Shown: positions 52,729-64,000 of the stretch, one piece after another | How positions within the stretch are numbered: position 1 is the first letter of the stretch | Layout of the letters: each line of letters opens with the position of its first letter | Assembly (NCBI GenBank): GCA_030141605.1 | Contig: JAQGDQ010000040.1 | Coordinates: forward strand, 310,001 to 374,000 | Source of the DNA: Tubiluchus corallicola | Taxonomy: Eukaryota > Priapulida > Priapulimorpha > Priapulimorphida > Tubiluchidae | DNA length: 64,000 bases | Direction: 5' to 3' | The notes under the pieces: generated by a model | What the model was told of the DNA's origin: nothing | Databases searched by the model: none | The model's input: the letters and a program-made list of their open reading frames with translations, nothing else | Program-made: the position numbers and the translations under genes

Positions 52729-64000
<11,272 letters not shown>

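Follow-up and report, generated by a model that had tools for sequence, protein, structure and literature searches.

The analysed window, a stretch of 64,000 nucleotides from Tubiluchus corallicola, contains a gene of the CLCA family in which both histidines of the zinc motif HExxH are replaced by arginine. The resulting RExxR sequence lies in the reading frame of an exon and the predicted protein is homologous to CLCA_N and VWA domains; moreover, the MIDAS signature DxSxS is changed to DVSGV, the tripeptide ALY is missing and the modelled C-terminus is hydrophobic. On the basis of these properties we moderately favour the view that the gene encodes a metazoan CLCA with an open frame which is catalytically dead, membrane-anchored and presumably active in a non-enzymatic role. 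The open frame is the feature that suggests a retained function.

Gene structure and family assignment

The gene model spans positions 52738-63516 and consists of 13 exons with 787 codons plus a stop codon. It contains no internal stop, all of its introns (12/12) are of the GT-AG type and the phases fit. The 13 intact in-frame exons previously counted by the first-pass annotation are correct for the part of the gene within the window. The exons and the altered motif are arranged as follows:

52738..52940, + strand, exon 1: contains the start codon, an N-terminus weakly resembling a signal peptide and the first part of CLCA_N
54446..54695, + strand, exon 2: core of CLCA_N
55525..55657, + strand, exon 3: 133 bases, bears REWARLRWGVFEE
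55534..55548, + strand, REWAR (residues 155-159) replacing HExxH: Glu166 instead of the Asp of HEXXHXXXGXXDE
55973..56145, + strand, exon 4: part of CLCA_N containing cysteines
57553..57657, + strand, exon 5: end of CLCA_N
57856..58026, + strand, exon 6: VWA begins here, its MIDAS altered to D327-V-S-G-V331
58436..58628, + strand, exon 7: VWA, MIDAS Thr405 retained
59357..59475, + strand, exon 8: VWA, MIDAS Asp438 retained
59602..59770, + strand, exon 9: end of VWA
60525..60787, + strand, exon 10: region corresponding to the beta-sheet-rich part of CLCAs
61511..61691, + strand, exon 11: continuation of this region
62555..62730, + strand, exon 12: most of a choice-of-anchor X match (residues 678-715)
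63289..63516, + strand, modelled exon 13: bears the hydrophobic residues 762-780 and the stop, lacks ALY and FN3

The N-terminus encoded by exon 1, MWPPFLILLCFN, reaches a hydropathy of 1.52 in its best stretch of 12 residues and supports a signal peptide weakly. Residues 25-299 match the Pfam family CLCA_N (PF08434) with an E-value of 1.1e-59 and 202.6 bits (cut-off 25.6), covering profile positions 2-262 of 266. This domain is followed by a VWA domain, as is the order in CLCAs; its Pfam match (E 1.4e-4, 22.6 bits) stays just under the curated cut-off of 23.8, and the sole solved structure matched at E ≤0.001 is 6pyo/6pyx (E 8.2e-8), the human CLCA1 VWA domain. The NCBIfam model TIGR00868 (hCaCC) extends over residues 12-718 with an E-value of 2.3e-102, its 343 bits being well under the curated cut-off of 901; profile positions 14-683 of 863 are matched and the remainder is unmatched. 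In the passages of Lenart et al. (PMC3650047) that deal with its distribution, CLCA_N is found in Metazoa and some prokaryotes only; together with the introns and simple repeats, this family marks the window as animal DNA. A second CLCA copy in the window was dismissed, as tblastn with the protein returned its own exons and one further match of 20 residues (30%, E 6.5).

The zinc motif and its reality

At 55534-55548 the bases CGC GAA TGG GCG CGC, translated in the exon 3 frame, give REWAR, followed by LRWGVFEE, as described before in the first-pass annotation. Its claim that both zinc-ligand histidines are arginines likewise holds, with CGC at each codon and the motif embedded in a strongly matched CLCA_N domain. 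V and F belong to the GVFDE stretch of vertebrate CLCAs. Compared with the mammalian/CLCA2 pattern, the block REWARLRWGVFEE differs at three positions, the two His and the Asp before the last Glu. The chance that three changes in 13 positions hit exactly this set is 1/286, which we regard as an indication and not as a test because the comparison is limited to vertebrates and takes V and F from the general pattern of the family.

The vertebrate letters HEWAHLRWG are themselves supported by the literature: passages of PMC10669480 give HEWAHL for CLCA2 and primer letters of an E-to-Q mutant that spell HQWAHLRWG, and PMC11231702 describes HEXXHXXXGXXDE as a motif present in all mammalian CLCAs. 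The block around the motif, described as kept in the first-pass annotation, retains the letters E, W, A, L, R, W, G of this pattern, and the Asp is Glu in this protein. In analogy to the Asp-zincin motif, whose spacing is off by one residue (PMC3890501), the Asp may be a third metal ligand. Each His-to-Arg change corresponds to a single transition (CAY to CGY) in its codon, a route noted in general terms by Lenart et al. (PMC3650047).

The 15-mer occurs once in the window when up to three mismatches are allowed; shuffled sequences gave a mean of 0.12 and a match in 12 of 100 cases. A substitute HExxH exon, which the first-pass annotation had named as a finding that would speak against its reading, was sought with the expression [HRQNYC]Exx[HRQNYC]xxxG in all six frames of the window. 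None of the 11 matches carries His at both positions, so that an alternative exon of this form within the window was dismissed, and a CLCA-like context is found for the match at 55534 only. Skipping of exon 3 was likewise rejected as an escape from RExxR, because the loss of 133 bases would shift the frame. The acceptor of exon 3 has the lowest score of the 12 (-0.78, leave-one-out matrix); like the VWA and TIGR00868 scores under their cut-offs and the weak signal peptide, this speaks against the preferred reading.

MIDAS, cleavage site and C-terminal part

Three further points go beyond the first-pass annotation: a changed residue in the MIDAS, the lack of ALY and the lack of the FN3 part. 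In the alignment of the VWA domain to that of CLCA1, DVSGV lies opposite DKSGS; the second MIDAS Ser is thus Val, Thr405 and Asp438 are retained, and the intact DxSxS-T-D constellation of the TMEM16-engaging CLCA1/CLCA4 type is absent. In the 6pyo alignment a distance of 67 residues was counted by hand between the MIDAS Thr and the second Ser, the same as between S316 and T383 of CLCA4. Because of this identical spacing the lost Ser probably corresponds to S316, provided that CLCA4 has no insertion in between, and Val331 would probably occupy the equivalent position. The joint exchange S316A + T383A in CLCA4 abolished the channel potentiation by the VWA domain, as described in a passage of PMC11231702.

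ALY is absent throughout the 787-residue protein, the cleavage site being defined from vertebrates; QNR/ALY and RSR-ALY are the canonical sites named for chicken and Xenopus in the relevant part of PMC9007345. A Glu at the Asp position or a missing ALY may be common in invertebrate CLCAs.

Pfam detected no FN3 domain in the gene model, and residues 762-780 at the modelled C-terminus, where FN3 would be expected, are hydrophobic with a mean hydropathy of 1.98. Exon 13 contains two candidate donors scoring above 2, at 63294 (3.15) and 63483 (2.54). True donors score between 0.53 and 10.74, and a value of 2 is attained by 24% of the GT sites throughout the window; as, moreover, the modelled stop lies 484 bases before the window end, a further exon past exon 13 may exist. 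The true 3' end of the gene could therefore be other than 63516, and the FN3 part may be located past the window end.

Predicted loss of catalysis and self-cleavage

Active self-cleaving CLCAs carry the HExxH zinc motif, in place of which REWAR is found here. Given the loss of both zinc-ligand His, the otherwise kept block and the 13 in-frame exons, the protein is predicted to be a pseudoprotease. According to the data given in PMC11231702 on the mutants H155A and E156Q, human CLCA4 loses self-cleavage and chloride current upon either exchange. The E-to-Q exchange abolished cleavage in chicken CLCA1, whereas the EQ mutation merely impaired it in murine CLCA4a (both from passages of PMC9007345). 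As reported in parts of PMC10669480, wild-type CLCA2 cleaved 1.5-6% of the inactive E165Q protein in trans; this mutant no longer affected calcium entry but was still found in complexes with wild-type CLCA2; the introduction of that paper reports the cleavage of CLCA1 as intermolecular. Uncleaved CLCA1 is still secretable, as stated in a passage of PMC6851300.

The non-cleaving pseudoprotease postulated by the first-pass annotation accordingly survives in one half: the predicted loss of catalysis is well supported, both His being gone and H155A being inactive in CLCA4, while an uncleaved state does not follow in view of the trans cut of E165Q and the mere impairment of CLCA4a. Since trans cleavage of an inactive CLCA2 does occur, the evidence favours "cannot cleave" over "never cleaved".

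Possible function and alternative explanations

We propose the following tentative scenario: Owing to the replacement of HExxH by RExxR the N-terminal zincin domain would no longer hold zinc. The predicted protein would enter the secretory pathway and remain one membrane-anchored chain without cutting itself, and an engagement of TMEM16-type channels by the MIDAS route of CLCA1 and CLCA4 would be unlikely. The protein might then act by binding either an active CLCA or the ligands of such a CLCA, in the role of a partner, brake or decoy. A more far-reaching version, in which a CLCA lineage shed zinc ligands, cleavage site, C-terminal fragment and MIDAS at once and became a permanently anchored, metal-independent binding protein, appears doubtful. 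Known CLCA activities rest on zinc-driven self-cleavage and on a MIDAS-dependent hold on the channel. If the scenario is true, a gene kept without self-cleavage or MIDAS grip would provide a natural test of the role of the remaining protein and of a possible control of active CLCAs by inactive ones.

The observations on CLCA2 E165Q and CLCA1 also lend themselves to the explanation that the protein is dead as an enzyme and nevertheless a substrate, cut in trans by an active CLCA that the animal also possesses and shed like its relatives, so that RExxR would be functionally mild. We consider this unlikely, as the protein lacks the ALY of the canonical sites, only a short tail follows the usual cleavage site in this gene model and tblastn found no paralogue within the window. 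The joint change of several functional sites (RExxR, DVSGV, no ALY, no FN3 in the model) would equally be expected from a recent loss of function with early decay, the open frame being merely young. This reading is improbable in view of 13 stop-free exons with 12 canonical introns and fitting phases, and of the differences from the vertebrate pattern around the motif, which are confined to the proposed metal positions. Although one transition suffices for each change, an artefact of sequencing or assembly or a rare allele at the two codons of an otherwise active CLCA would require two independent errors, one per ligand, in addition to which two other metal positions are changed (Asp to Glu, Ser to Val); it seems very improbable to us.

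The preferred reading, a dead and membrane-anchored CLCA with a non-enzymatic role, has precedents. Passages of Lenart et al. 2013 (PMC3650047) describe CLCA_N sites as substituted in many members, with a role unknown there, mention H1-to-Arg as occurring "often" and H5-to-Lys as occurring too, count about five independent losses of the site and suggest decoy or accessory roles for dead zincins in general. These CLCAs resemble the present one in having a CLCA_N domain with a replaced zinc ligand. A term search in the main text of that paper, whose figures might show such a case, did not reveal the exact RExxR pair, and a literature search yielded no CLCA described as "pseudoprotease". As CLCAs with substituted sites were published in 2013 (PMC3650047), the surprise is lesser, and the window gene probably joins the "dead" CLCA enzymes known from the literature, its further changes affecting other working parts too. 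With the general phenomenon published, it represents an additional, more extreme-looking case and no new kind; the combination of changes may be unusual when set against vertebrate CLCAs.

Among characterized proteins, human CLCA1 and CLCA4 share with the window protein the order of CLCA_N and VWA, to which the 6pyo alignment conforms, and CLCA4 also the predicted membrane anchoring. However, as far as the consulted sources describe them, they combine HExxH and FN3 with an intact MIDAS and a cleavage site, whereas in the gene model, up to the window end, 0/4 are present in canonical form. CLCA2 of mammals and birds has an interrupted MIDAS and a C-terminal membrane segment like the window model, and therefore offers a precedent for MIDAS loss, but in contrast to the window protein it keeps HExxH and is self-cleaving (passages of PMC9651043 and, for the latter, also PMC10669480). 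Inactive ADAM proteins, zincins of another family in which HExxH is replaced and which are retained for binding, are comparable according to a passage of PMC3650047.

Searches in prokaryote, phage and plasmid collections

Plasmid and phage collections contained no CLCA relatives at E-values up to 1, and none of 269 pattern matches in prokaryote genome contigs was confirmed as a related locus by tblastn. A degenerate DNA pattern with CRY (His or Arg) at both positions was present in at least 120 stretches; among the 120 matches listed, 119 read HE..H and one RE..H. Eight of these 120 were scanned with Pfam and yielded no CLCA (0/8), one being a clear peptidase M64 and others hitting unrelated families or VWA. 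With eight scanned and none a CLCA, these stretches do not serve as a CLCA control and no rate was drawn from them. Two bacterial proteins, L118:3000-5216 (- strand) and L037:995-3382 (+ strand), show the CLCA order of HExxH (residues 166 and 120, respectively) followed by VWA with DxSGS; neither matches PF08434 at E 0.01.

Other features of the window

A 5S rRNA match (RF00001, 109.2 bits) lies at 48386-48504 on the - strand inside a unit at 48000-48524, which is flanked by the perfect 17-base direct repeat TATATACTTTCAGGTAT (48000-48016 and 48508-48524) and may be a 5S-bearing insertion. At 17645-18925 (- strand), an open frame of 427 residues spans nearly all of both ATP:guanido phosphotransferase domains; as a single frame covers both, the gene looks intronless. 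The N-terminus of its product presumably resembles mitochondrial creatine kinase. A likewise apparently intronless frame of 326 residues at 3046-4023 (+ strand) contains nearly the whole PNP_UDP_1 (phosphorylase superfamily) domain. Pieces of rhodopsin-type GPCRs are found at 40644-41573 and 14649-15344 (both - strand), the latter under the Pfam cut-off, and an open frame at 46340-46960 (- strand) carries a histidine N-acetyltransferase C-terminal domain (Hisat_C).
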